From a bacterium (GTDB taxonomy: Bacteria; Myxococcota; UBA727; JAUIJE01): a DNA stretch of 64,000 nucleotides. Position 1 is the first letter of the stretch; each line of letters begins with the position of its first letter. Shown here one piece after another: positions 31,290-62,530 of this stretch. Position numbers and translations under genes: made by a program. The notes beneath the pieces are model-generated. The model worked only from the letters and a program-made list of their open reading frames with translations. It made no database searches and was not told the origin of the DNA. The stretch lies in assembly GCA_030431455.1 (NCBI GenBank), contig JAUIJE010000003.1, positions 390,360-454,359 of the forward strand, read 5' to 3'.

Positions 31290-31748
31290 CTATCCTCGTC
31301 GGCCAAGCCGGCGGCGGACCCGATCGAACAGAATGCGTCGCAGGCTCAGCCGTTCGTAGGGTGCGAGCACCGTCGCGCCCACGCCGCGTTCGAGCGGGGT
31401 CCAGGTGCCGTCTCGTTCGACCCGCGTGACCTGGGCGCGGACCAAGTCGGCGGTGGTCCAGCCATCGATCCACGGGAGGTTGTCGGGTTTGAGCAACACC
31501 GCCCCGCGGGCGTCGAGACCGACCACCCGGTGGATGACAAAATCGCCCGAGGGAAAAAACGCCGCCACCACGTCGCCGAGCCGCAGGTCGGTCACCGGGC
31601 TGAGCTCGACCCGCGACCCGGACGGAATCGCCGGCTCCATCGACTGGCCGGTGGCGCGCATCACCTGGGGCCGGCGCGAGACGGCCTCGAGCACCAGCTC
31701 GAGCGCGGCGCGGTCCTTGACGTCCTCGGGCGCGGCCTCGTCGGTCAC
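31290..31748 (-). CDS. S24/S26-type peptidase-like protein, soluble
   Basis: 152 residues from GTG 31748. The motif GQSMEPAIPSGS gives the catalytic Ser of LexA/signal-peptidase type enzymes, and GDVVAAFF...FVIHRVVG gives the second box with His where signal peptidase I usually has Lys (a Ser-His arrangement known from SipW-type enzymes). There is no membrane helix. Such small S24/S26 proteins are often found with PqqD-like and HPr-kinase-like genes in RiPP clusters, and both are encoded nearby. A leader-peptidase role is inference. Confidence 0.72.
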   Translation of the reverse strand: MTDEAAPEDVKDRAALELVLEAVSRRPQVMRATGQSMEPAIPSGSRVELSPVTDLRLGDVVAAFFPSGDFVIHRVVGLDARGAVLLKPDNLPWIDGWTTADLVRAQVTRVERDGTWTPLERGVGATVLAPYERLSLRRILFDRVRRRLGRRG

Positions 31749-31787
31749 CGCATGGTTGTACGCCGCTCTGCCTGATATGGCCACGTC

Positions 31788-32636
31788 GTGGACGCCGTGG
31801 ACCGCCTGCCCAAACGCACCCGCCTCGCCCTGCGCGCGGTGGAAAAGGCCGTCCGCGCCCAAAACAGCCTCTACCGTCCCCTGCACATCGCCCAGCGGGT
31901 GGTGGGCTCGGCGCTGATGACCGCCCTGTCCCCCGACGAAAAAGAAGCGTTGGGTCTCATGCTCTACGACCACGGCCGTCACTACCGGGGGCACGGGCTG
32001 CACGCCTGGGAACAGCTGTGGTTCAAAAGTGACCTGCCCAAGGCCCCCGCCCGCCTGCTGGTGGGCGCAAGCGGCGCGGGCCGCGAAGCGGTGGGGCTCA
32101 TCGAGCTTGGCCATACAGTGACATGTTTTGACGGCAGCCCGTCGATGGTGCGCGAGTGCCAAGCGCGCATGGGCGACAAAGGGCACGCGTTTGTGGCCAG
32201 CTTCACCGGGTTTGCCGACGACATCGCCGCGGGCCGGCGCCCGGCCGGGCTCGACGAGGCCCCCTACGACGCGGCGCTGATCGGCTGGGGCAGCATCGGC
32301 CACGTCTACGACGACGACGTGCTCGTCCGCCTGCTGCGCGCCCTCGACCGGGTCTGCCCGACCGGGCCGCTGCTGCTGTCTTTTCCCGAGCCGCGCCAGG
32401 AGACCTACGACATCTCGCCGGGCAAGGCCGAACGCCTCGGCCGCGGCATCGGCCGCGCGGTGTGCAACGTGCGCGGTCGCGACCCCACCGTGCACCGGTA
32501 CGAATACTTCGCGGTGGCCGAGGGTTTTTTGCGCAGCTTTCCCCGTGAAGCGGTCGATGGCTGGGCCGCGTCCATCGGGCGCAAGGCCGTGCACGCCAAC
32601 TATGGATACCCGACGGTGACCCTGCAGAAACGGTAA
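31788..32636 (+). CDS. SAM-dependent methyltransferase-like protein
   Basis: 282 residues from GTG 31788. LLVGASGAGREAVGLIELGHTVTCFDGSPSMV is a class I methyltransferase motif I with its acidic post-I loop, and DAALIGWGSIGHV occupies motif IV. The N-terminal about 80 residues are helical and may contact substrate. It is divergent from the S24/S26 peptidase (39 bp between starts) and convergent with the HPr-kinase-like gene. It may methylate the product of the adjacent peptide cluster, but this is unproven. Confidence 0.7.
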   Translation: MDAVDRLPKRTRLALRAVEKAVRAQNSLYRPLHIAQRVVGSALMTALSPDEKEALGLMLYDHGRHYRGHGLHAWEQLWFKSDLPKAPARLLVGASGAGREAVGLIELGHTVTCFDGSPSMVRECQARMGDKGHAFVASFTGFADDIAAGRRPAGLDEAPYDAALIGWGSIGHVYDDDVLVRLLRALDRVCPTGPLLLSFPEPRQETYDISPGKAERLGRGIGRAVCNVRGRDPTVHRYEYFAVAEGFLRSFPREAVDGWAASIGRKAVHANYGYPTVTLQKR

Positions 32637-32667
32637 AGCGCCGATTTTGCTCGCCCCAGTACCGTGG

Positions 32668-33528
32668 TCAGCGGGCGCGGTTCTCGACGTGGGCGAGCAC
32701 TTGTTCGAACACCTCGTCGGCGGGGGTCTCCAGGGCGCGCCAGAGCCGCACGACCTTGACCCCGGCCACCAGGTCCATCACCCGGTCGAGCAAGGCCTGC
32801 TGCAATGTCACGTCATGGGAAAAACACACCACGTGCCGCATCACCTGGGCCACGGCTTCGCGGCCGGGCAAGTCTTCGATCCAGGTCTGGCCGTTGGTGG
32901 ACTGCTCGAGCAGGGCGAGGCCGGCGAAGGTCCCGCCCACCTCGTGGCCAAGTTTGCCCGCGGAGCCGAAAAACGGAGACGGCAACACCCGCGGCGCATC
33001 TGTGGACAGCTGCGCCACCAGGCTGATGTCGTCCGAGATGTACTGGGCCTGGGTGAGCGAGGTCGAGAGCGTGGTCTTGCCCTGCCCCGACACCCCCGCG
33101 AACAACAGCCCGCGCCCGGCCTTCACCGCGCTCGACGCGTGAAACATCAAGCCATCAAACTCGAGCGGCAGAAGCGCGGTGACCATGCCCCGCAGGGGGT
33201 TGATGAGACTGATGAGGGGGGTGTTCTTGAACTCTTCGAGATGGATGCGCGCGTCCAGCGTCTTGCGGTGACATTGCGCCTCGAATACGTCCGCCGCGCG
33301 GATGGTCACCTGCTCGTCGTCGACGCGCACGTCCAGGTCCTGGACCTGGTGCTGCTGCTGTTCGGGGTCTTGGCCGTAGGTCTGCTCGACGATGCGCAGC
33401 CGGGGGCGCGCGTCATCGGGCGGGGCCGGGTGCTGGTATTGCGCGACCCACTTGTCCATCGCCGGGGTCCAGCACGCGGTTTGCTCGAGGACCATGGGCC
33501 CCAGCGACCAGAGCAGGGGCTTGGTCAT
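32668..33528 (-). CDS. HPr-kinase/phosphorylase-like P-loop protein of the RiPP cassette
   Basis: 286 residues from ATG 33528. Walker A GVSGQGKTT spans 145-153, followed by YISDDISLV as a Walker-B-like Asp pair. The N-terminal about 120 residues are beta-rich. This size and layout match HPr-kinase-like proteins found in RiPP clusters (for example beside lasso-peptide genes), which are distinct from true HprK because no PTS genes accompany them. It starts 10 nt after the second radical SAM gene, on the same transcript. Confidence 0.75.
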   Translation of the reverse strand: MTKPLLWSLGPMVLEQTACWTPAMDKWVAQYQHPAPPDDARPRLRIVEQTYGQDPEQQQHQVQDLDVRVDDEQVTIRAADVFEAQCHRKTLDARIHLEEFKNTPLISLINPLRGMVTALLPLEFDGLMFHASSAVKAGRGLLFAGVSGQGKTTLSTSLTQAQYISDDISLVAQLSTDAPRVLPSPFFGSAGKLGHEVGGTFAGLALLEQSTNGQTWIEDLPGREAVAQVMRHVVCFSHDVTLQQALLDRVMDLVAGVKVVRLWRALETPADEVFEQVLAHVENRAR

Positions 33529-33538
33529 GACCGCGCGC

Positions 33539-34738
33539 TCACGGCTCGGTGTCGAGCCGGCCCTTGGGCGCGGGGGGCTCAAACGTGGTGTCGCCCACCA
33601 GGGTCAGGGCCTTGCCCCGGTCCATGGCCGCGTTCTTTTTGACCTTGAGCGCGGCCAGCTCGTGCGCGGCCTCCGCCAGCTGCCGCGAGCTCGACGAACA
33701 CCCGTCGATGTCCCCGTCCTCAATGTCACTGTAGGCCATACACGGCCCGCACGAACTCTTGACCTCGCACGAGCTGCACGTGCTCATCTTGTCGAAGGTC
33801 ATGTCGCGGACCGCGTCGAGCTGGGCGCTGCCGAACCAGATGTCGGCCAGGGGCGCGTCCTTCACGTTGCCCGCGGCGGTGGCGAAAAAGCCGCACCCGA
33901 GCACGCTCCCGTCCGCGGCGATGGCGAGGTGGCTGCGCGCGGCCCCGCACATCACGCCTTCCTTTTGCACGATCGACGCGGTGCCGTCGCACAGCTCGCC
34001 GGGCTGAAAACGGCGGAAAGCCGAATAGAGGTCCGGCCGCGACAACACCTTCTGGCGAATCTCGCGGGGGCTGAGCGCGTACTTCAGCGGGTCGCGGTTG
34101 CCGTCCATCTTCGGCTTCACCGTGGGGTCGAACGACCAATCCGCGCCCACCTCCTCGGCCAGCGTGATCAGCCCATCGATGTGGTCGACGTTGAACGTCA
34201 TCAGGTTGGCCTTGAGCGCGGTCCTGACCCCGCGTTCGCGCAACAGGCGCAGGGCGCGCACGGTGCGGGCGTGGCTGCCGGGAATCCGGGTAAACCCGTC
34301 GTGGGTCTCGGCCAGGTGGCTGTAGAGGGTGACCTCGACCTTGCTCACCTGGAGCGCGGCCAACCGGTCGGCCTTCTTCTCGTCGATGTGCGTCCCGGTG
34401 GTGAACAGCTCCACCGAAAACCGGCGCTGCCGGGCCTCGGCGATGAGCTCGAGCATGTCCCGGCGCAGGAAGATCTCGCCCCCCGAGAAGGTCAGCTGAA
34501 TCACGCCCAGGGCCGCGAGCTCGTCGAGGATGCGCCGGTAGTCGTCGAGGCTGAGGCTGTGCTCTTTCGGGTGGCTCTGCTCAGATTCGTAACAGTGGTC
34601 GCACTTCAGGTGGCAGCGGTTCTCGACGTACAAGAGCGCGGCGTGGGGCCGGACCTGGGCCCACTTCTGCGCGCGCGCGGCCTGCTTTTTTTTGGCCGTG
34701 CCCGCGAGCTGGTCAAAACCGATGAGGGCCGAGCTCAT
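33539..34738 (-). CDS. radical SAM/SPASM peptide-modifying enzyme, second copy
   Basis: 399 residues. The radical SAM cluster motif CxxxCxxC is at Cys42, Cys46, Cys49, followed by FSGGE for SAM binding. The C-terminal SPASM region has eight or more Cys (GVMCGAARSHLAIAADG..GCGFF, CSSCEVKSSCGPC, DGCSSS) for auxiliary Fe-S clusters. These enzymes (PqqE, sactipeptide and related maturases) modify ribosomal peptides. It overlaps the first copy by 4 nt (ATGA) and is clearly its paralogue. Confidence 0.9.
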   Translation of the reverse strand: MSSALIGFDQLAGTAKKKQAARAQKWAQVRPHAALLYVENRCHLKCDHCYESEQSHPKEHSLSLDDYRRILDELAALGVIQLTFSGGEIFLRRDMLELIAEARQRRFSVELFTTGTHIDEKKADRLAALQVSKVEVTLYSHLAETHDGFTRIPGSHARTVRALRLLRERGVRTALKANLMTFNVDHIDGLITLAEEVGADWSFDPTVKPKMDGNRDPLKYALSPREIRQKVLSRPDLYSAFRRFQPGELCDGTASIVQKEGVMCGAARSHLAIAADGSVLGCGFFATAAGNVKDAPLADIWFGSAQLDAVRDMTFDKMSTCSSCEVKSSCGPCMAYSDIEDGDIDGCSSSSRQLAEAAHELAALKVKKNAAMDRGKALTLVGDTTFEPPAPKGRLDTEP

Positions 34739-35943
34739 CCCACCTCCGTGAACAGCCGGCCTTCCGAAAGCTCGGCCAGGTCCACGTCGATGTCGCCCAC
34801 CAACGGAAGGGGCGCGCCCTTTTGGAACTTCTTCTGCACGCGCAAGAGCTCATCCGCGACGAGCTTTTTGCTTGTCGCGTCCTGTCGTGAATAGCTGTTG
34901 CAGGCCTTCTCGTCGTCGTGCTCGATGAGGCCGTAGGCCATACACGGGCTGCAGCCTTGGCGCACGTCGCACGATGAGCAGCTGCTCATCTCACCGAACG
35001 TGGTCTTGCGCACCCGATCGAACAGCGGGGACCGGGTCCAGATGTCCTCGATGGGGTGTTCGAGCGCCGAGCCCCCGGCCACCGGGAACATCGCACACGG
35101 CGCGACCTGCCCGTCGGCCCACACCGTGACCAGCCCGCGCGCCGCCGCGCAGAGGGTGCCCTTGTCGCCACGGGGATTTTCCCCGTGGCAGAGGTTGTCC
35201 GCTTCGGTCATCGACGTGGCCTTGGCGAACTCGGGCCGCTTGTACACTTTGTCTTTCAGCTCCGCGGGCGGGACGGCGAACTGCAATGGCTTTGTGTCGC
35301 CGTTCATGCGCGGCTTCACCGTGGGGTCGAGCGCGTAATCGGCGCCACAGTCCTTGGCCAGCGCGACCAGCTCGTCGAGGTGATCAACGTTGAACGTCAT
35401 CACGTTGGCCTTGAGCACGGTGTGCACGCCCCGCTCCTTGAGCAGCCGGAGGGCGCGTACGGATTTGGCCCAGGAGCCCTTGGTCCCGGTGAACTTGTCG
35501 TGCACCGCGGGGTCGTGGCTGTACAGCGAGATGTGCACCTCGCTCACTTGGAGCGCGGCGATGCGATCGGCCTTTTGCTCATTGATGGGCGTGCCGCTCG
35601 TATAGATGCGCACCGCGAACCGTTTTTGGCGGGCCTGCGCGACGATGTCGAGGAAGTCCTTGCGCAAGAAGGGCTCGCCCCCCGAAAAGGTGCAGACCAG
35701 CACGCCCAGGCGGGCGAGCTGGTCCAGAATGTCACTGTACTGTTCGAGCGAGAGGCCTTCGACGTGCGGGTGGGTGTCCTCGGCCTCGTAGCAGTGTTCG
35801 CACTTGAGGTGGCAACGGTTCTCGACATACACGTGGGCGAACATCGGCCGGACGTTCGCCCACGTCTTCGCGTAGGTGTGATCGAGCAGCTGAGAACGCG
35901 AGTCCTGGTAACTCTGCGACCGCTTTTCGATCTGAACCAACAC
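34735..35943 (-). CDS. radical SAM/SPASM peptide-modifying enzyme, first copy
   Basis: 402 residues from GTG 35943, starting 2 nt after the precursor-peptide stop. Cys44, Cys48 and Cys51 form the radical SAM motif (CHLKCEHC) and FSGGEPF follows. The SPASM part carries GTLCAAARGLVTVWADG..APCAMFP, CSSCDVRQGCSPC and EKACNSYS. The adjacency to a Cys-containing small peptide with a leader-like N-terminus is the main evidence that the peptide is its substrate. Likely reactions include thioether or C-C crosslinking; the type cannot be told from sequence. Confidence 0.9.
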   Translation of the reverse strand: MLVQIEKRSQSYQDSRSQLLDHTYAKTWANVRPMFAHVYVENRCHLKCEHCYEAEDTHPHVEGLSLEQYSDILDQLARLGVLVCTFSGGEPFLRKDFLDIVAQARQKRFAVRIYTSGTPINEQKADRIAALQVSEVHISLYSHDPAVHDKFTGTKGSWAKSVRALRLLKERGVHTVLKANVMTFNVDHLDELVALAKDCGADYALDPTVKPRMNGDTKPLQFAVPPAELKDKVYKRPEFAKATSMTEADNLCHGENPRGDKGTLCAAARGLVTVWADGQVAPCAMFPVAGGSALEHPIEDIWTRSPLFDRVRKTTFGEMSSCSSCDVRQGCSPCMAYGLIEHDDEKACNSYSRQDATSKKLVADELLRVQKKFQKGAPLPLVGDIDVDLAELSEGRLFTEVG

Positions 35944-35945
35944 GC

Positions 35946-36125
35946 TCAGCTACCGTTGCACCCGGCGGCGCACATCGAGCTATCTTGCTTGGTGCAGGTT
36001 CCCGGGGGAGCCATAATGCCGTTGGCTCCGGTGCAGCTGAGGGCGAAGCGCTCGAAGGCGCTCCCCGACCGCAGCATCGGTTTTTGGTAGCGGCGCTTTT
36101 TCAGCGGGTTGGTTTGCCGTTTCAC
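35946..36125 (-). CDS. candidate RiPP precursor peptide (59 residues)
   Basis: GTG 36125 has AGGAG 6-7 nt upstream (36131-36135), overlapping the stop of the giant surface-protein gene. The peptide has a very basic N-terminus, then Tyr13-x-x-Pro16-x-Leu18-x-x-Gly21, close to the YxxPxLxxxG leader element bound by PqqD-like domains in lasso and other RiPP systems. The presumed core (about 30-59) has four Cys at 31, 44, 52 and 56 plus Ser/Thr/Gly residues. The gene stops 2 nt before the first radical SAM gene. I infer it is the substrate of both radical SAM enzymes. Confidence 0.75.
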   Translation of the reverse strand: MKRQTNPLKKRRYQKPMLRSGSAFERFALSCTGANGIMAPPGTCTKQDSSMCAAGCNGS

Positions 36126-36133
36126 AGTCTCTC

Positions 36134-39100
36134 CTAATATCGCACGAACAGGCTGCCGTCACCCTGGCCGGCGCCGTTGTCGGCCCGCTCGGTGGCCCAG
36201 CAGAGCTCATCGAGGCCGTCGTTGTCGAGGTCCCCGCAGGCCGAGGCGAACCCGGCGTAGAACCCGTCGAAGGTGGACGGATAAATCGCGTCCGGCTCCG
36301 TGCGGGCCCCACCGGTCAGGCCGCTGCCCTCCGCGTAGTCGTACCCGAGCCAGACCGTGACCTTGGCCGGCTCTGCCGCCTGGGCGAAGTAGAGCACCAT
36401 CACGTCGTCGTAGCCGTCGCCGTTGGTGTCCTGGACCGCCACGTTGCTGTTGACCTGGAAGGCCAGCGGCTGGGTGAAGCTCAGGTTGTAGTCTGCGGTC
36501 GCCGACAGTGCGCCCCCGTTGGCCTTGTAGATGGCCACGTTGGGCGCCTGGGAGGCGACGAGGTCTTGATCGCCATCGCCGTCCACGTCGCCGGCGGCGA
36601 GGTCGCGCCCGCAGCCCGAAGCAGTGCAGGCGATGACATCAGTCGCCGCCAGTAAGGCCAGGGATTCGGTCGCCGGCGGCACCGCCCAGTCGCCGGTGGC
36701 CTTGCCATGGATCACGTAGAAGCCGTCGTGGCCGTCGACCACAAAGTCGTCGTACGCGTCGGCGTTGAGGTTGCCCACGCCGGTGGCGACGCCGAGCAGC
36801 GGGGTCTCGGCCGCGCCGCCCTGCGGGCGGTCGTTGTCGAGCAACGCGTAGCGGCTGCCGTTGGCGGTGCCGATGGCCCCGGTGGTCGGCCGGGTGCCAG
36901 ACCCGAACAGGACCACGTAGTCGGTGGTGTAGGCGTAGAACGCGTCCCAGGCGGTGATGCCGATGTCGTCAAAGCCGTCACCGTCGACGTCGCCGAGGTT
37001 GCGCGGCTGCACGCCCACGATGGACAGCGACTGCAGGTCGATGACCACCGGGGTGGTCTCGACGAGGTCGGGGACGCCGGGCACAGTCTCGACGTTCGTG
37101 CCGTAGAAGATGTGCAGCTCGCCGTAGAACGTGGTCGGGTCCACCGCGGTGACGATGAGGTCGTCGCGGCTGTCCCCGTCGAGGTCGGCCACGGCCACCC
37201 CGAGGTAACCGAGGTTGGCGGTGCCGCCCACGTTGGTCTCGTCGAGGGTCTTGCCCACCGAGAGGCTGCCGAGATCGCCGCCGCCGCCGAAGATGCGCAC
37301 CGAGCCGTGGCAGTAGAACGGGAAGGTGCAGTTGTCGCCTTCGTTCCAGGCCGCGACCGCAATGTCATTGAAGCCATCGCCGTTGAAGTCACCGCCCACC
37401 TGGGGCACGCCGCCGAAGTAGTCGCGCTCGGCCGCGCCCGCGGCCACGTCGTTGTCGACGTTGGCGTAGGTGAACATCGAAGTGACCAGACCGGCTTCGC
37501 TCACGGTGGCGAACGAGGTGTTGCCCACGTCGTCGACGGACAGCACCCCGAAGTACCAGGTGTTGTCGTAGGCGAGGAACTGGGAGGTCACCGAGAACGC
37601 CCCGCCCGGGGTCGGGTTGGCGTCGGGCGCCACCCGGCCGCCGAAGGACGGGTAGGGCTCGCCCGCGGCCAAGGCGGCCACGTCGGCTTCGGTGATCGGA
37701 CTGCGCGACGCGACCACGGTGACGGTCACCGGGCCCCCCGCTGCGCCGTCGTCGCCGGGCGCCGCGGTGGTCGAGACTTCGATTTGGCCGAGCCGGGGGT
37801 TGCCAATCACCGCGGTGGTCAGCGCCGGCACCGCCGGGGCGGTGATGTCGACGGTGGTCTGGACCGCACCCGAGCCGCTGTTGCCGGCCAAGTCGGTGCA
37901 GGTCGCGACCCAGTCCGCGGTGTTTTCGCTGGTGTCGGTCACGGTCACGGTCACGCTGTCGGTGCCCGAGCCGTCGACCGGCCCTTGCGCGGTGGCGAGG
38001 TCGGTGCCGCCCTCTTGCAGGGTGATGGTGCCGTTTTCGCATTGGGTGACGTCGACGGTGACCTGCACCTGCAGACCCGCCAGGCCCTCGTTGAGGTCGC
38101 TGGCGATGTTGAAGGTCTCGTCCACCGGGTTGTTCACCGTGCCTTGGCCATCGGTGATGCTCGCGATGGTCACGGTGGGCGCGCCGAAGTCCACGTTGTA
38201 GTTGAACTCGCCGGTGGTGCCGCCCATCGCGTCGCCATCGGCGAAGGTGATCTCGATGGTGCCGCTGTCCCCGTCGGTGACGGGCAGGTCCACCCAGATG
38301 GTGTCGCCCATCTCGGTGATGGTGGCGGTGGTGGCGAGACCGTCGACCAGGACCGTGATGGTCGTCGGCATCGGCGCGGCGGTCCAGCCGTTGACCGAGA
38401 TTTCGAAGCGAGCGGTGCCGCCCCCGATGTCATCGGCGGCGCCGATTTCGATCATGCCCGCGACTTGGTCCGGCGAGGTCAGGAGCACCGAGTATTCGCC
38501 GGTGTTGACCTGGATGCTGACCGGCTGTGAGGTGCCGACGTTGCCGGAGGTCTCGGTGCCGCGCGCGCGCAGCGAGGTGATCTCCCCGTTCACGTAGGGC
38601 ACGTTGATGCGGATGACCTCGGTGCCGCTGTCCGCGCCCACCGTGGTCGTCCCACGCTGCAGGTTGTTCTGGTCGATGATCGCGATGGTGCGACCGGCGC
38701 TCAGTCCGGCGTAGTCGACGGTGACATCGAGCTGGAAGCCCGACTTGGCCGGGTCGGCGTCGTCCGCGGCCATGAACACCGCGTCCGCGGCGGGCGCGGT
38801 GATGGTCAAGCTCGGGCCCACGCTGTCCACCGTCGGGGTGTACGGCGCGGACGTGCTGGTGTTGCCGGCCACGTCGCTCACGACCGCGGTGAGGTTGTGG
38901 GCGCCGTCGGCGAGGGTGATGTCGGCGAAGACCGCTTGGCCACCCGCCACAGGGGCGGTGCCCAGGCTCGAGGCCCCATCGAACAGCTCGACGGTCTGGG
39001 TGGCGCCCGCGTTGGTGGTGACCACGATGTCGATCTGCAGGCCCGCTTGGGTCACGGGGTCTTTGTCGTCGGCCACGAGCAGCGTCGGTTTGCTCGGCAC

Positions 39101-42100
39101 CGCGATGCTCACGTTGGGGGCGACGGTGTCGACGAGCAACGCCAAGCTGGTGTTGCCGGTGAAGCCGTTGCCCGCGGAATCGGTGCCCTGCACGGAGAGG
39201 GTGTGGTTGCCCTCGGGGAGCGCGACGTTGGTGAAGGTCACGGAGTTGCCCGCGGTGACCCCCGTCGCCACCTGGGTGCCGTCGATGCGCAGGGTGATGG
39301 TGCGGCCGTTGTTGATGTCGTTGAAGGTCACGGTCACGTTGGACACCGCCGCGCCCGGGGGGTCCCCGCTTTCGATCCCGTTGAACACGCCGACCGGGGC
39401 GCCGTCTTCGACCACGGTGATGGCGTTGACGTTGGGGAGCGATGAGTCGACCGAGAAGTTGCGCACCGCGGTGCCGCTGTTGCCGGCCGCGTCGGTGGCG
39501 GAGAAGGTCGCCACCCACGCGCCATCGGTGAGGTTGGCGGTGTTGTTGGTGCAGACGCCGGACGCGAGGACACAGACCCGGCCCACGGTCGCGGGCCCGG
39601 TGTAGGTGATGGTGACCTGCGCGCCGGCGGCCAGCCCCGTCACGGTGGTGTAGGCCAGCTGTTGGTACCCGTTGATGCCCGCGTTGGCGTCGGCGGCGTT
39701 GCCGTAGAGCAGGCCTTGCACGGGTGAGCTCACGTTGAAGCTCGGGGCCACGGTGTCGACCCGGAACTGCGCGTTGGCCGGCCCGGTCTCGGTGGCGCCG
39801 TCGTCGACGTAGGCGCGGATTTGGTACTGGGTCGCGTCGGAGTAGGCCACGCTGATGGTGGTGGTCGCGGCCACGCCCGAGGCCACGGTGCCGAGGTCAT
39901 CGGTGAACACCACGGCGCCGTCGCTCACCCGCACCACCTCGATGCGGGCGGTGTAGGTGCCGACGGTGAAGCTCGCGGTCACGCTCACTTGTGCGTCGAG
40001 TTCGGTGGGGGTCGCGGGTTGCGCGTCTTCGCTCGCCACCCACCAACCGTTGCCGTCGGCGTCCCCGGCCACCGAGACCGAGAGTGACACATCCCCGATG
40101 GTGAAGGTCAGGACCTGGGTCGTGGTGTTCACGCCGTCGGTGGCCTGGACCGTCAGGGTGCAGTTGGGCTGGTCGATGTTGGTCAGCGGCAACGTGAAGT
40201 TGCCCGCGCCATCGAGGGCGAGCATGCCGCTGAGGTTGAAGTTGCCGCCCCCGTCGCAGGCCAAGTCGTAGGACGCGGACGTCGCGCCGGTCGCGTTGCC
40301 GGTGAGGTTGAGGGTGGTGCCGTTGGCCGGGTTGGCGTCGAGGTCATCGCCCGGGCCGTAGAACTGCCCGTCCACCGGCGAGGTCACGCTGAGCAACGGG
40401 GCGGTGCGGTCGACGCTCACGTCGACTTGGTTGTCCCCCAAGGTGCTGGTGCGCACACCGTCGGTCACGCTGGCGGTGAGGGTGAAGTCGCCGTCGGCGA
40501 GGGTGACCTGGATGAAGGCCGTGCCCTGGCTGTTGACGAAGCCGGAGTAGGTCGACGCACCGGTGTCGATGTCGACCTGGAAGCCCTCGCAGAACGCGGC
40601 GTTGTTGGTGTCGACCGCGACCGTGGTCTGGAACCCGGGGGTGATGGGGTCGGTGTCCACCGCGGCTTGGCCGAAGAGCGCGCCGTCGGCCGGCGACGTG
40701 ATGGTCGCTTCGCACGGCAGATCGACCACGATGTGGAAACTGACCGGCACCATCACGGTGTTGATGCCGTCGGTGGCGGTGATGGTCGCGGTGCAGTCGC
40801 CTTGGTCGAGACCGGTGAGGGAGGTGTCGAACGCCCCCGCGGGCAGGGTGCCGCTCTGGTCGCCGCTGTTGCCGTTGCAGGTCACGTCGTAGCTGGCCAT
40901 GGTCGCGCCCATGATCGACCCGGTGAACGCGAGATCGATGAGGTTGAGCGGGTCGGCGTCGAGGTCATCGGTCTCGTCGTAGGTCGCGTCCTCGACCGGG
41001 TAGGTGATCGCCACCACCGGAGGCATGGTGTCCACGGTGACGTTCACGGTGTTGTCACCCACATTGCTGGTGGTGGTCCCGTCGCTGTTCGAGACGGTGG
41101 CGGTCAACGTGCTGTCGCCCTCGGGCACGGTGACGTTCACGGTCATGGTGCCGTTCGACACCGTGGCCGGCCCGTAGGTATTGCCGCCGACCTCGACCGA
41201 GCCGGTCCAGGTTGCGCAGGCGGGGTTGTTGCCGGGATTGATCACCACCGGAATCTGAAGGCCAGGACTGCCTGGGTCCGCGTCGGTGGTCATCGCGCCG
41301 TACACCGTCCCATCGGGGGGCGAGACGATGTCCGCGGCGCACGGCTGCGGAAGATTCACGGTGAAGTGAACCTCGATCATCTCGTCTTGGGAGCCGTCGG
41401 ACACGGTTACGATCAAGGTACATTGTGGTTTGCTGATGTTCTCAACTTGGATGGTGAAGCTGCCGTCGACATTGAGGGTGATGTCGCCGTTGTCCGTGAA
41501 GGGCGCGCCGGTGCCCGAGCAGGTGATCTCATAGGTCGCTTCGGTGGTGTCGACGGTGGTCCCCGCGAACTCGAGGGTGATGCCATTGAGAGCATCCCCG
41601 TCGAGGTCATCGGTCTCGTCAAAGGTCTCGCCTTCGAGAGGGCTGGTGAGGGTCACGCTGGGGGGCAAGGTGTCGACGTCCACGCTGATGTTGGCGATGT
41701 TTTCGTTGCCGTCGTCGTCGTAGACGCGGGAAGTCAGCAACACGTTGTTGCCTTCGGGAAGGGTCACGACCACGTTGCCGGTGCCGTCGGCGCCAATGGT
41801 TCCGCTTTCGGTGATGCCGTCGACGGTCACGTCGAGGGACACACCGGCGCACTCGATGTTGCCGGTGTCGATGGTGACCTCGGTCTGAAAGCCGATGTCG
41901 GGCGATGCGTCGATGCTGTCGGCGGTGAAGTCGTCGCCGTCGAGGGGGCTGGCGAAGGTCGCGGCGCAGGGGAAGTCGGGGTTGACCTGGACGGTCACCG
42001 AGATCGCGACGGTGGCGATGAGGTTGCCTTGGTCGTCGACCAGGTCCGCGCGGACGGTGTTCATGCCCATGTTGTTGCCCACGGTGACTTGGCCGGTGGC

Positions 42101-42718
42101 GTTGCCGCTGCCATTGGTGGTCGCGGTGACGTCCACGTCGCCGGCGTTGACCACCAGATCGTGGTTGTTGGGGTCTTCTCCGCTGCAGGTCACGTCGAAG
42201 TCAATCTGGGCGCCGTCGGTGTTGGGGTCGGCGTCGGTGGTGATCATCGCCCCGGAGGTGGGCTGGTTGAAGGTGCAAGTGGTCGAACCGTCGGGCTCGA
42301 CACCGGTTACGGTGATTTCGGCGCTCGCGCCCAGCGTGTCCGAGACCGTCAGGGTCTGCTCTGTGCCCCCGGACGAAGCCGCGATGTCGAAGTTGTTGAA
42401 CGTGGCCGATCCGTTCGAGACCGTCGCGGTGGCTTCTTCCCCCTCGCTCGAGGTCAGCGTGAGCACGCGGCCATCCGACCCGCTGTAGTCGACCTCAACG
42501 TCGAACTGGATGTTGTTCTCCAGCGGATCGTCATCGTCGCTCGGATTCAACGTGTCACCGTCCACCGGCGCGATGAACGTGATCGTGGCCGTGCCCGCAT
42601 CCGTGCCGCCGTCCGGACCCACGGGCCCCGGGCACCCACACCCCTGCCCCAGCGCGGAGACCACAACCCCCGCGGACAAAATCGCCACCAACCGTTGAAC
42701 CCGGAACGTATTCGTCAT
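36134..42718 (-). CDS. giant surface protein: Ig-like repeats and C-terminal FG-GAP propeller
   Basis: 2194 residues from ATG 42718, with AGGAG 8 nt upstream. A signal peptide ends near GQGCGC (Cys27), probably a lipoprotein. About residues 50-1740 are a dozen or more Ig-like beta domains recurring as SPxDGxxF..DDxDxxPxNG and TVDTxPP motifs. From about 1770 to the end are seven FG-GAP repeats with Ca-binding DxNxDGxxD loops (DFNGDGFNDIAVAAW, DLDGDSRDDLIVTA, DTNGDGYDDVMVLY), which fold into a beta-propeller like an integrin head. Such proteins are adhesins or surface scaffolds. It lies directly before the precursor peptide, 9 nt apart, so it shares the transcript. Confidence 0.9.
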   Translation of the reverse strand: MTNTFRVQRLVAILSAGVVVSALGQGCGCPGPVGPDGGTDAGTATITFIAPVDGDTLNPSDDDDPLENNIQFDVEVDYSGSDGRVLTLTSSEGEEATATVSNGSATFNNFDIAASSGGTEQTLTVSDTLGASAEITVTGVEPDGSTTCTFNQPTSGAMITTDADPNTDGAQIDFDVTCSGEDPNNHDLVVNAGDVDVTATTNGSGNATGQVTVGNNMGMNTVRADLVDDQGNLIATVAISVTVQVNPDFPCAATFASPLDGDDFTADSIDASPDIGFQTEVTIDTGNIECAGVSLDVTVDGITESGTIGADGTGNVVVTLPEGNNVLLTSRVYDDDGNENIANISVDVDTLPPSVTLTSPLEGETFDETDDLDGDALNGITLEFAGTTVDTTEATYEITCSGTGAPFTDNGDITLNVDGSFTIQVENISKPQCTLIVTVSDGSQDEMIEVHFTVNLPQPCAADIVSPPDGTVYGAMTTDADPGSPGLQIPVVINPGNNPACATWTGSVEVGGNTYGPATVSNGTMTVNVTVPEGDSTLTATVSNSDGTTTSNVGDNTVNVTVDTMPPVVAITYPVEDATYDETDDLDADPLNLIDLAFTGSIMGATMASYDVTCNGNSGDQSGTLPAGAFDTSLTGLDQGDCTATITATDGINTVMVPVSFHIVVDLPCEATITSPADGALFGQAAVDTDPITPGFQTTVAVDTNNAAFCEGFQVDIDTGASTYSGFVNSQGTAFIQVTLADGDFTLTASVTDGVRTSTLGDNQVDVSVDRTAPLLSVTSPVDGQFYGPGDDLDANPANGTTLNLTGNATGATSASYDLACDGGGNFNLSGMLALDGAGNFTLPLTNIDQPNCTLTVQATDGVNTTTQVLTFTIGDVSLSVSVAGDADGNGWWVASEDAQPATPTELDAQVSVTASFTVGTYTARIEVVRVSDGAVVFTDDLGTVASGVAATTTISVAYSDATQYQIRAYVDDGATETGPANAQFRVDTVAPSFNVSSPVQGLLYGNAADANAGINGYQQLAYTTVTGLAAGAQVTITYTGPATVGRVCVLASGVCTNNTANLTDGAWVATFSATDAAGNSGTAVRNFSVDSSLPNVNAITVVEDGAPVGVFNGIESGDPPGAAVSNVTVTFNDINNGRTITLRIDGTQVATGVTAGNSVTFTNVALPEGNHTLSVQGTDSAGNGFTGNTSLALLVDTVAPNVSIAVPSKPTLLVADDKDPVTQAGLQIDIVVTTNAGATQTVELFDGASSLGTAPVAGGQAVFADITLADGAHNLTAVVSDVAGNTSTSAPYTPTVDSVGPSLTITAPAADAVFMAADDADPAKSGFQLDVTVDYAGLSAGRTIAIIDQNNLQRGTTTVGADSGTEVIRINVPYVNGEITSLRARGTETSGNVGTSQPVSIQVNTGEYSVLLTSPDQVAGMIEIGAADDIGGGTARFEISVNGWTAAPMPTTITVLVDGLATTATITEMGDTIWVDLPVTDGDSGTIEITFADGDAMGGTTGEFNYNVDFGAPTVTIASITDGQGTVNNPVDETFNIASDLNEGLAGLQVQVTVDVTQCENGTITLQEGGTDLATAQGPVDGSGTDSVTVTVTDTSENTADWVATCTDLAGNSGSGAVQTTVDITAPAVPALTTAVIGNPRLGQIEVSTTAAPGDDGAAGGPVTVTVVASRSPITEADVAALAAGEPYPSFGGRVAPDANPTPGGAFSVTSQFLAYDNTWYFGVLSVDDVGNTSFATVSEAGLVTSMFTYANVDNDVAAGAAERDYFGGVPQVGGDFNGDGFNDIAVAAWNEGDNCTFPFYCHGSVRIFGGGGDLGSLSVGKTLDETNVGGTANLGYLGVAVADLDGDSRDDLIVTAVDPTTFYGELHIFYGTNVETVPGVPDLVETTPVVIDLQSLSIVGVQPRNLGDVDGDGFDDIGITAWDAFYAYTTDYVVLFGSGTRPTTGAIGTANGSRYALLDNDRPQGGAAETPLLGVATGVGNLNADAYDDFVVDGHDGFYVIHGKATGDWAVPPATESLALLAATDVIACTASGCGRDLAAGDVDGDGDQDLVASQAPNVAIYKANGGALSATADYNLSFTQPLAFQVNSNVAVQDTNGDGYDDVMVLYFAQAAEPAKVTVWLGYDYAEGSGLTGGARTEPDAIYPSTFDGFYAGFASACGDLDNDGLDELCWATERADNGAGQGDGSLFVRY

Positions 42719-42791
42719 CTTTGTACTCCTAGCGAGCAATTCTTCGGCACGAAGACGGCGCGACTGTACCCCATGCGCTCATCGGCCTGAT

Positions 42792-42824
42792 TAAAAAATG
42801 GAACACCTGGTGAGTGTGCCAGGT
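42792..42824 (-). terminator. intrinsic terminator-like hairpin behind pqqD-like gene
   Basis: On the minus strand ACCTGG (from 42824) pairs with CCAGGT (to 42805) around an 8-nt loop, followed 6 nt later by six T (42798-42793). It starts within 4 nt of the PqqD-like stop. The delayed T run makes it a weak or partial terminator, so transcription into the giant gene may be reduced rather than stopped. Confidence 0.5.
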
Positions 42825-42827
42825 ACC

Positions 42828-43121
42828 TCACGGTCCGCTTGCCCGGGGCTCATCGTGTACGAACATGAGACCCTTTTTCACCGCCTCCTCCACGAACGAG
42901 ATCGCGTCCGCGCGCAACTCCGTCTCCGACACGTCGAACTCGGCCAGCATGTCCGCCGCGATCTCCGACAACCGGCGGGATCCGTCCGCGCGGTCCCATA
43001 TGTAGGTCGCGGTGTCGTTCAGCGTGTGCAGCGTGGAATCGTGCGGGGTGATGACGATGGCTTCCCCGTCGATGGTCCGCGCCGGCGTTTCCGGGTTCTG
43101 TTCCACATACCGGTCCCACAT
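42828..43121 (-). CDS. PqqD-family peptide chaperone / RiPP recognition protein
   Basis: 97 residues with GGAGAG upstream. The pattern GEAIVITPHDSTLHTLNDTATYIWDRADGSRRLSEIAADML followed by DAISFVEEAVKKGL is the complete PqqD fold. PqqD proteins bind the leader of a precursor peptide and present it to a radical SAM enzyme. It is encoded 5' of the giant surface protein on the same strand as the precursor and both radical SAM genes, making it their likely partner. A hairpin with a T run follows the gene. Confidence 0.9.
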   Translation of the reverse strand: MWDRYVEQNPETPARTIDGEAIVITPHDSTLHTLNDTATYIWDRADGSRRLSEIAADMLAEFDVSETELRADAISFVEEAVKKGLMFVHDEPRASGP

Positions 43122-43179: not shown

Positions 43180-44289
43180 TCAAGGGTGAGCGGCTTTGGT
43201 CGTCCCCAACAACGCTTCGACCTCAGCCCGGAACACCGCGGGCTCCGTATAGCCAATGTGCACGTGCCGCACCACGCCTCGCTCGTCGACCACGTAGGTG
43301 GTCGGCAACGACTCCATGCCCACCTGCTCGCCGAACCCGGAGCGTCTTCCGGCGTCCTGATCGAGCACCGAGGTGAAGCTCGGCGCGAGTTTTTCCCATT
43401 CTTTTCGAGCCTTTAGCAGGTCGCGCGGCTCGCGGTTGACCCCCAAGACCATCAGGCCCCGGTCGCGGTAGGCGTCGTGGAGCGCGCTCAATTCCGGAAT
43501 CTCGCGTTTGCAGGGCGCGCACCAGCTCGCCCACAAATCGACGATCGTCACCTTGGCGCCCAAGGCGCCCGTCTGTACCGCGGGGTCACCATCGAACAGC
43601 GCCGGCAGCGTCACGTCGGGCAGGGCATCGCCCGGGCCCACCGGCCGGCCCGCGCCGGTCACCTGCACCCCGGCGGCGACCACGTAGCCGAGCAGCAACA
43701 CCACAAACACCGGCGCGGTCTTCACCTGGGGCCGCGCCTCGGTGCGGAACAACGACGGCAAGAACAACACCAAGACGACCAAGCTCGGCCCGTAGGTGAT
43801 GGCGCACTTGATCGCGAACCGGGTCATGCTGTAGCTGTGGCCATCAAACAATGCATAGGCAGCGTTGACGGGATGATGCGGCAACCACCACGCGTCGGAG
43901 GCGAACGCCGCCGCCGACACCCCTGCCATCTGCAGCAGGCAGAGCCACACCCCCGCGTGGCCCACCACCGCGAGGGCCCGGGCCACCGAGAGTTTGTGCG
44001 GGGCCCACAGACGGGACGCGAAATAGAGCGCGGCCGCGGCCACCCCCCACACCAAGAGGTCGGCGTTGACCTGGGTCCACAGCTGCCGCCCGATGCGGCG
44101 GGTCACGATGTCGGCGTTTTCTGTGTAGAGCGGCACCTGCCGGTAGACGTACGGCAACCCCCGAAGCACCTGCACAAACAGGTACAAGCCGGCCACGCTG
44201 ACCACCCCGCCGTCGCGGTCGAAGGCCACCCGCCGCAACGTGGGCAGGGGCGCGACCAGCATGGTGGAAAACCGAGCCAAGGCGTTCAT
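43180..44289 (-). CDS. membrane protein with C-terminal TlpA-like thioredoxin domain
   Basis: 369 residues. The N-terminal about 200 residues hold five membrane helices and look like a Yip1-type domain. A further helix precedes a TlpA/DsbE-like thioredoxin domain with active site WCAPC (Cys257, Cys260) and the cis-Pro segment LPTTYVVD. The active site should face the periplasm, where it could reduce disulfides or assist heme or metal delivery. It overlaps tadA by 4 nt and lies 58 nt before the PqqD-like gene. A link to the Cys-containing peptide is possible but unproven. Confidence 0.85.
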   Translation of the reverse strand: MNALARFSTMLVAPLPTLRRVAFDRDGGVVSVAGLYLFVQVLRGLPYVYRQVPLYTENADIVTRRIGRQLWTQVNADLLVWGVAAAALYFASRLWAPHKLSVARALAVVGHAGVWLCLLQMAGVSAAAFASDAWWLPHHPVNAAYALFDGHSYSMTRFAIKCAITYGPSLVVLVLFLPSLFRTEARPQVKTAPVFVVLLLGYVVAAGVQVTGAGRPVGPGDALPDVTLPALFDGDPAVQTGALGAKVTIVDLWASWCAPCKREIPELSALHDAYRDRGLMVLGVNREPRDLLKARKEWEKLAPSFTSVLDQDAGRRSGFGEQVGMESLPTTYVVDERGVVRHVHIGYTEPAVFRAEVEALLGTTKAAHP

Positions 44290-61003: not shown

Positions 61004-62530
61004 TCAAAGCGGTTCGCGCCGGCGCACCAACAAAAGCATCAACAGGGCCAAGGCGAGCGCGGGGGGCGCGGCCGCGTCCCCGCTCACGCACGTACACCCC
61101 TCGACGACGCTGGGGGGCGGTTGGGGCTCGGGCTCGCCCTCGCCGGCGTCGTCCCCGGGGGCGCCGGCATCCTGGACAACGCCCGCGTCGGGCCCCTCCG
61201 CGCCCGCGTCCGGGCCGCCGCCGGCCGCGTCGGGGCCCGCCCCCGCGTCGAGTCCCGCATCCGCCACGTCGCCCGCGTCGGGTCCGGTGACCCCCGCGTC
61301 CGGCCCGCCGATGAGCGTGACCGGCTCGACCTGCACGGCGTCGAACACGACTTTGCGCATGGTGCCGAAGGCCTCGCCGGTGTTGTCCTGGGCCCGCACG
61401 GTGTAGGTCTCGCCGGCGACAAAATCGAACGTGCCGAGGGCGGCCCAGCCGTCCTGCGCGGTCTGGTCGAGGGTGACGGCGCTGAGCCCGCTTTCGCTCG
61501 TCACCGCGTAGGGCACCTGGGTGCTGCCCGCGACGTTGGCGTCGGTGTACACGCTGATGGCGTAGCTCCCGGATTGTTCGACCCGGATGGTGGTCTCGGC
61601 CCAGACATCTTCAGTGGCATTGTCCCAGGCCCAGGTCCAGCGCAGGCTCCCTGCATAGCCATTGATGCCGTCCCAGCGCATGGACTCGGGCGCGCCCCCG
61701 TAGGCCTGACACGCGTCCTTGTCGTCGAGGATGCGCCCTTCGGGGGGCACCGCGAGGCACCCTTCACAGTCCGCGGCGCAGGTCTCCGAGGTCTCGTCGA
61801 GGGTGCAGTACCCGTCGCCGCAGGTGGCCGGCCCCATCATCAGGTCGCTCATCTCCGCTTCGACGCCGTTGAACAGGTTGGTGTCCACGTTGCCGGTGAT
61901 GCCGGCCACGCTCCCCGTCGACGAGGTCTGCCAGAAGTCCCACCGGGTCAAGGTGTTGGGCAGGGTCGGACAAGTGACATTGTAGTTGGCGAACCACAGG
62001 GGATAGCCGGCGAGCTCAAACTCGTCGGTGTTGATGCGCGTGTTCCAGAAATACTGGTAGGTGTAGAGCAGCGGCTTTTTGCCCGTGGCCGCCTCCACCC
62101 GGTCGATCCATTGCCAGATCGCCGCGATGTACTCCTCCGGGGTCTCGTCGCCGGTGCCGTCGTGTTCGATGTCGATCACCGGCACCAGGTCGTCCGCGGC
62201 CAAGCGCCCCTTGAGCCGGTCGAGCATGAGGTCGGCTTGGTCCACCGGGTCCTCGTCGATGAGGAAGTATTGGTACCAACCGCGGATGATGCCGTTGTCC
62301 CGTGCCCCGGCCCAGTTCTCGTCGAAGCGCTCATCGATGTCCTCGAGGCCGTGGTTGACCCGGATGACCGCGAAGCGGACCCCGTCCCCGGCGACCTGGG
62401 CCCAGTCGATCGCCCCTTGCCACTTGGACACGTCGATGCCGGGCACGGTGGGCCCGTCGGGGCAGGTCTGGGCCTGGGCGGCCCCCGCGGCGAACAACAA
62501 AACCAGGGCGGAGCAGAGTGCACGGAACAT
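61004..62530 (-). CDS. secreted GH25 lysozyme-like hydrolase with MYXO-CTERM tail
   Basis: 508 residues. The signal peptide (1-20) is followed by a glycoside hydrolase family 25 domain (about 25-215: PGIDVSKWQGAIDW, VPVIDIEHDGTG with the acidic catalytic pair). A Cys-rich region (CGDGYCTLDETSETCAADCEGC), a beta-sandwich domain (about 285-405) resembling a carbohydrate-binding module, a DAG spacer and a C-terminal GCTC-helix-RRR sorting signal follow. GH25 enzymes cleave the MurNAc-GlcNAc bond of peptidoglycan. Surface anchoring suggests action on other bacteria, as in predation, but this is inference. Confidence 0.9.
   Translation of the reverse strand: MFRALCSALVLLFAAGAAQAQTCPDGPTVPGIDVSKWQGAIDWAQVAGDGVRFAVIRVNHGLEDIDERFDENWAGARDNGIIRGWYQYFLIDEDPVDQADLMLDRLKGRLAADDLVPVIDIEHDGTGDETPEEYIAAIWQWIDRVEAATGKKPLLYTYQYFWNTRINTDEFELAGYPLWFANYNVTCPTLPNTLTRWDFWQTSSTGSVAGITGNVDTNLFNGVEAEMSDLMMGPATCGDGYCTLDETSETCAADCEGCLAVPPEGRILDDKDACQAYGGAPESMRWDGINGYAGSLRWTWAWDNATEDVWAETTIRVEQSGSYAISVYTDANVAGSTQVPYAVTSESGLSAVTLDQTAQDGWAALGTFDFVAGETYTVRAQDNTGEAFGTMRKVVFDAVQVEPVTLIGGPDAGVTGPDAGDVADAGLDAGAGPDAAGGGPDAGAEGPDAGVVQDAGAPGDDAGEGEPEPQPPPSVVEGCTCVSGDAAAPPALALALLMLLLVRRREPL

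Follow-up and report, generated by a model that had tools for sequence, protein, structure and literature searches.

The question raised by this locus is why a gene for a 2194-residue surface protein lies between the genes for a PqqD-family protein and a 59-residue peptide, in the midst of genes for peptide modification. The DNA analysed, here called the window, is a stretch of 64,000 nucleotides from a bacterial genome. On its minus strand lie, in order, a TlpA-like thioredoxin gene, a PqqD gene, the gene of the 2194-residue protein (the giant), the peptide gene, two radical SAM/SPASM genes, an HPr-kinase-like gene and an S26-type peptidase gene. The features are listed below.

43180..44289, minus: membrane protein with a C-terminal TlpA/ResA-type thioredoxin domain (Redoxin/AhpC-TSA in Pfam)
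42828..43121, minus: stand-alone PqqD-family protein, a RiPP recognition element or RRE (PF05402, 62.9 bits, cut-off 23.4)
36134..42718, minus: giant surface lipoprotein, 2194 residues (Pfam; N-terminus; integrin alpha matches by profile and Foldseek)
36134..37693, minus: family-defining C-terminal domain of the giant (profile searches; alignments A3 and A5)
35946..36125, minus: precursor peptide, 59 residues (leader KKRRYQKPMLRS, Cys-bearing core, terminal CNGS)
36066..36098, minus: leader motif [KR][KR]xYxxPx[VIL]x[ST] (Y13, P16 and S20 of the peptide; 63 distinct leaders)
34735..35943, minus: radical SAM/SPASM enzyme 1 (PF04055, 92 bits; PF13186; CxxxCxxC and SPASM cysteines present; alignment A1)
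33539..34738, minus: radical SAM/SPASM enzyme 2, paralogue of enzyme 1 (50% identity)
32668..33528, minus: predicted HPr-kinase-like peptide kinase (weak ScmC/HprK-related model matches; invariant motif; structure matches)
31788..32636, plus: methyltransferase, recurring accessory (a homologue adjoins the cassette in genomes G046, G044 and G047)
31290..31748, minus: S26/S24-type peptidase, candidate leader peptidase (PF00717, 26.7 bits, cut-off 23.3; Ser-His motif GQSMEP...VIHR)

An earlier, sequence-only reading of this DNA had named the PqqD gene, the 59-codon gene (GTG start), the two radical SAM/SPASM genes (overlapping by 4 nt), the HPr-kinase-like gene (ATG at 33528, 10 nt past the second radical SAM gene) and the S24/S26-type peptidase gene, and all were found where it had placed them. 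It had also described the methyltransferase as facing the peptidase, which is wrong, the two genes being divergent. The membrane thioredoxin gene (44289-43180) is probably part of the cassette and likely its first gene; TlpA/ResA-like homologues lie upstream of PqqD in three other loci, in genomes G002 (L140), G038 (L209) and G024 (L280). The PqqD gene is the only one in the 7.7-Mb genome to which the window belongs, and its product matches the solved structure of a lasso PqqD protein (9x90).

The giant lipoprotein and its distribution

The giant is predicted to begin with a signal peptide bearing a lipid-anchor cysteine (GQGCGC), to continue through tandem Ig-like repeats and to end in an integrin-alpha-like FG-GAP propeller. 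The other giants likewise carry a lipoprotein-like N-terminus, which ends in GCxC in most of them. The best PDB profile matches of the propeller are integrin alpha subunits (integrin alpha-5 at 5e-32), and Foldseek, used with a predicted model of modest confidence, matches integrin alpha as well. The likeness is confined to the FG-GAP beta-propeller; unlike the integrin alpha subunits, the giant is a bacterial lipoprotein with an Ig-like stalk. Foldseek places PDB 9oee at the top of the propeller's matches; in it, a Streptomyces protein is bound to UmbA4, from the umbrella toxin particle.

With the first radical SAM protein as query, three relatives were obtained, all with a giant Ig/FG-GAP protein adjoining a short peptide and with PqqD, kinase or peptidase nearby in differing combinations; the same query gave no matches in IMG/VR. 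Further loci were obtained from a profile of the peptide, and in each the peptide was encoded directly past the stop codon of a giant protein. Because both groups of loci repeat the giant-peptide arrangement, the position of the giant between PqqD and peptide is a conserved feature. The sequence-only reading had singled out a 2194-residue adhesin at this place as foreign to the cassettes it knew; the protein is real, and a predicted lipoprotein, and far from being odd it is a constant part of the cassette.

A profile made from the C-terminal domains of ten giants matched 27 genomes among 195 of the same phylum, and in most of its weaker matches, missed by the first peptide profile, the giant was again followed by a YxxP peptide. 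With a second profile, built from 24 giants, a full-length giant was found in about 69 of the 195 genomes, each of which has a single copy (E 1e-144 to 1e-43); these matches are followed by a clear gap, other FG-GAP proteins giving partial matches only, with E above 1e-34. The phylum is probably Myxococcota, because the window's genome has 26 MYXO-CTERM domains and the 14 control genomes have none. Within the window, a MYXO-CTERM domain (61016-61099, minus strand) ends a 508-residue ORF (61004-62530).

Constant and optional members of the cassette

Many of the genomes are fragmented, and counts are given for the loci that could be scored. In the first set, a small ORF with a [YW]xxP motif started between -20 and +34 nt from the stop of the giant gene in 27 of 28 loci, as against 2 of 143 other genes of the same loci (Fisher 5e-28), a control counted once and with slightly stricter pattern settings than those used for the second set. 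The pattern had been written after some of these 28 loci were seen, and the fairer test is a second set of 40 loci found by the giant profile alone. Here a slightly wider pattern identified the ORF in 36 of 40, and in 39 of 40 with three added by eye (G069, G105 and G119). Altogether, a small YxxP-leader ORF lies directly past the giant's stop (-20 to +40 nt) in 66 of 68 loci, 63 of them by the strict pattern; no recognisable peptide was seen behind the giant in the other two (G049 and G194). On the side opposite the peptide, PqqD adjoins the giant in every one of the 59 loci whose upstream sequence is long enough, and in many giant-bearing genomes only one PqqD is listed.

The remaining genes are less regular. 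An HPr-kinase-like gene accompanies the cassette in 47 of 56 loci, an S26-type peptidase in 43 and radical SAM genes in 18, so that PqqD, giant and peptide are constant, kinase and peptidase usual and radical SAM genes optional. The radical SAM pair named in the sequence-only reading is therefore not the core of the cassette: most loci have no radical SAM gene, and a closely similar second copy was seen only in the window. When the radical SAM label is mapped on a tree of the giants, six changes are required, against a mean of 16.6 after shuffling, and the label is clustered; the simplest description of the pattern is that one large clade lacks these genes altogether. In this tree, the giant of the window falls together with that of G002, a genome of the same order. 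Many cassettes of family f13 comprise PqqD, kinase and peptidase only, with no crosslinking enzyme, and some lineages have neither kinase nor peptidase beside the giant. In one genome group (L200, L247, L253, L272 and L277), a haem O synthase-like protein with the motif TKPRLSxLVLFT is encoded just upstream of PqqD, and the peptides are Cys-rich ('..VLLAC..CC..') with no adjacent kinase or peptidase gene.

The precursor peptide

In the window, the sequence ATTAGGAGAGACTGTG places AGGAGA over the stop codon of the giant gene. Because the peptide gene starts near the giant's stop, the two may be translated in a coupled manner. When 63 distinct leaders were aligned on the Y/W position, K or R was found at -3 in 60 and at -2 in 53, Y or W and P at +3 in all 63, V, I or L at +5 in 59 and S or T at +7 in 52; the search pattern imposed Y/W and P, and in part +5, and left the rest free. 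Behind this leader the core varies widely between families, with 0 to 8 cysteines, and a single shared function is accordingly not obvious. A gene-encoded precursor whose leader is conserved and whose core varies, as seen in these 63 leaders, and an RRE encoded with it, as in 59 of 59 loci, are both marks of a RiPP system.

Comparison of G090 with G175 gave changes at 22.5 of 32 synonymous versus 6.5 of 103 nonsynonymous sites of the peptide gene, and that of G084 with G090 gave seven synonymous changes versus one nonsynonymous; over other pairs of relatives, the dN/dS-type ratio ranged from 0 to 0.64. Because synonymous changes far exceed nonsynonymous ones within genera, the small ORF is, as judged from its codons, a real gene under purifying selection, and by the same measure its core does not diversify in the manner of a polymorphic toxin. 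It was not found that radical SAM homologues consistently occur without PqqD or a short Cys-containing peptide, nor that the peptide is unconserved, the two outcomes that the sequence-only reading had named as fatal to its proposal.

Searched as a single sequence, the window's peptide gave no convincing matches beyond itself and two paralogues in the same genome, and profiles were needed. These two orphan peptides are encoded in tandem (L014:9469-9877; G000:C18, about 731470-731880), some 305 kb away from the cassette and next to a gene resembling that of peptide deformylase. Both share the leader, and their Cys-rich cores end in CNGS or CQGS. Genes for radical SAM, PqqD or kinase proteins were not recognised nearby, and the two peptides are possibly further substrates acting in trans. 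Eight loci (L194, L198, L202, L204, L248, L252, L266 and L269) combine divergent radical SAM genes with Cys-free peptides that share an aromatic core (GPFREAPRR, GYGGFQRPPP), in which the crosslink chemistry is likely different.

Kinase, peptidase and radical SAM enzymes

The HPr-kinase-like protein scores weakly against its family (about 25 bits), and its catalytic motif (H148, S165-G166-x-G168-K169, D184) is invariant over an alignment of 17 relatives. Its structural model, poor in the N-terminal 112 residues, finds its best matches in PEPCK/HPr kinase, with low TM-scores. The motif H..G..G.GK[ST]..D[DE] of lasso-peptide-type kinases is also present, as compared with that of BsfK (PMC10368454). 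The GxSM...HR motif of the S26-type peptidase is kept in most loci, and in most loci kinase and peptidase motifs are both intact. The C-terminal serine was considered as kinase site for all the peptides and was rejected, since it is the last residue in only 8 of the 63 peptides of the phylum set; among peptides of the radical SAM 'ALAC' type, 12 of 16 end in this residue. S or T at Y+7 (52/63) is commoner than a terminal Ser, and may be part of the leader, because it is also found where no kinase gene adjoins.

A contig scan with the radical SAM alignment responded to generic motifs, most of its 80 loci holding unrelated radical SAM proteins, and only loci bearing PqqD or kinase genes were used. 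The window, with two radical SAM/SPASM enzymes and a Cys-rich core, resembles a sactipeptide or ranthipeptide locus in its make-up; the group as a whole does not, other loci having no Cys or no radical SAM gene.

Relation to known systems

The systems nearest in gene content are SynChlorMet and, in the Bradymonadales, lasso clusters that bear a kinase gene. SynChlorMet (ScmC, ScmD, ScmE and ScmF; NCBIfam) likewise combines an HPr-kinase-like protein, PqqD and two radical SAM/SPASM proteins. Membership of it was rejected, the window's proteins scoring 25.2 (ScmC), 32.8 (ScmD), 106.4 (ScmE) and 92.3 bits (ScmF) against cut-offs of 125, 100, 400 and 400. To our knowledge, a giant surface protein is no part of that cassette. 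GeoRSP (TIGR04302, TIGR04303), to which the sequence-only reading had looked, also has PqqD and radical SAM/SPASM proteins; it is not the best comparison, and membership was rejected, PqqD scoring 37.2 bits (cut-off 100) and the radical SAM proteins 133.3 and 126 (cut-off 400). The HPr-rel-A system (TIGR04352/TIGR04353) pairs an HPr-kinase-related protein with a PqqD family protein as here, but the window's proteins fall below its cut-offs.

The bsf lasso clusters of the Bradymonadales share with the cassette a YxxPxL leader, a stand-alone RRE and an HPr-kinase-like peptide kinase in which the motif is the same. Experiments on Bradymonas showed that its RRE, BsfB1, speeds phosphorylation of the YxxPxL precursor by the HPr-kinase-like BsfK (PMC10368454). 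The clusters also have a nucleotidyltransferase, one of which lies beside the cassette of G002, and an FG-GAP protein at the cluster border, compared here from the published description; the paper regards it as presumably not involved (PMC10368454). In contrast to the window's radical SAM/SPASM and S26 genes, bsf clusters have a B2 leader peptidase and a lasso cyclase C. The YxxPxL-type leader with an RRE is a lasso-like feature of the window, but no Pfam domain of a B2 leader peptidase or asparagine-synthetase-like cyclase was found among its cassette proteins. The partnership of giant, peptide and machinery was not found described in the literature, PMC10368454 being the only paper found with both FG-GAP and PqqD.

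Proposed function

The arrangement itself, as read from the predicted genes, is clear: a single-copy giant flanked by a PqqD/RRE gene and a YxxP-peptide gene. The chemistry and function are inferred from it, and on balance the locus is best regarded as a RiPP-type peptide maturation cassette dedicated to the giant surface lipoprotein with its integrin-like propeller and conserved throughout a phylum, most likely Myxococcota, with a product that works with the giant. The earlier idea of peptide maturation linked to the cell surface gains support, as PqqD, giant surface protein and a conserved peptide are kept together over the phylum. PqqD would bind the leader and hand the peptide to the kinase, in the way that BsfB1 serves BsfK in Bradymonas; in the window it would also hand it to the two radical SAM/SPASM enzymes, which would form crosslinks in the Cys-rich core. 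Gene order suggests that the S26-type Ser-His peptidase would cut off the leader and that the thioredoxin-like protein would hold the cysteines in the right redox state. Because the RRE, YxxPxL-type precursor and HPr-kinase-like enzyme of Bradymonas are all present here, RRE-guided phosphorylation is, by analogy, the likeliest common step, with radical SAM crosslinking added in some lineages, the window's among them. The finished peptide would be exported and act with the giant, a partnership again suggested by gene order, most likely at its propeller or stalk, either as a ligand or as a bound component. More tentatively, the modified peptide could be a dedicated component carried or bound by the single-copy giant, and so a part or ligand of a cell-surface machine rather than a free antibiotic or cofactor.

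The peptide might instead be an ordinary secreted RiPP (antibiotic, signal or metal binder), with the giant as its receptor, immunity or uptake protein, or a mere operon mate. Sets of kinase, PqqD and radical SAM genes with similar peptides do occur outside the phylum in Acidobacteria, Rokubacteria, Endomicrobia and others; in the three named groups the sets, some with an S26 gene, go with YxxP..FExxALACGK..S peptides. No giant was found in the flanks of these sets, nor a full-length one in 25 genomes with such sets or related, where FG-GAP matches were partial only. Within the window's phylum, however, PqqD, giant and peptide are inseparable (59/59 and 66/68) while the modifying enzymes vary, and no dedicated exporter was seen in the cassette; a free RiPP is rather unlikely. 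Four of the outside loci (L055, L056, L060 and L076, from Acidobacteria, Rokubacteria and Endomicrobia) encode YxxP..[FY]E..ALAC peptides, all with a terminal Ser. In these four peptides the residue is a candidate phosphorylation site, by analogy with paeninodin-type lasso peptides.

A giant surface lipoprotein with an integrin-like tip could also be a stalk showing the modified peptide to neighbours or prey, in contact-dependent toxicity or kin recognition, and the core does differ between families; this is improbable, since within a genus the cores are near-identical from species to species and evolve under purifying selection, unlike those of polymorphic toxins, no immunity gene was recognised and each genome has one giant copy. 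The small ORF could, lastly, encode not a natural-product precursor but a factor that assembles or regulates the giant and is itself controlled through PqqD binding and phosphorylation. This would suit the ORF's start near the giant's stop and the f13 cassettes that have no crosslinking enzyme, and is highly improbable given the conserved RRE leader and variable, often Cys-rich C-terminus, the usual make-up of a RiPP precursor, and the radical SAM/SPASM genes in 18 of 56 loci.

The reading of the cassette as serving the giant links RRE-guided peptide modification with a giant integrin-like surface protein retained across a phylum to which the myxobacteria most likely belong, a connection not made before. 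The order PqqD, giant lipoprotein, YxxP peptide is a precise and easily searched signature, and the loci offer dozens of natural variants in which differing modifying enzymes go with one leader. They raise the testable question of what modified peptides do in bacterial surfaces and social behaviour; if the proposal is true, a RiPP would serve in this phylum as part or ligand of a cell-surface machine.
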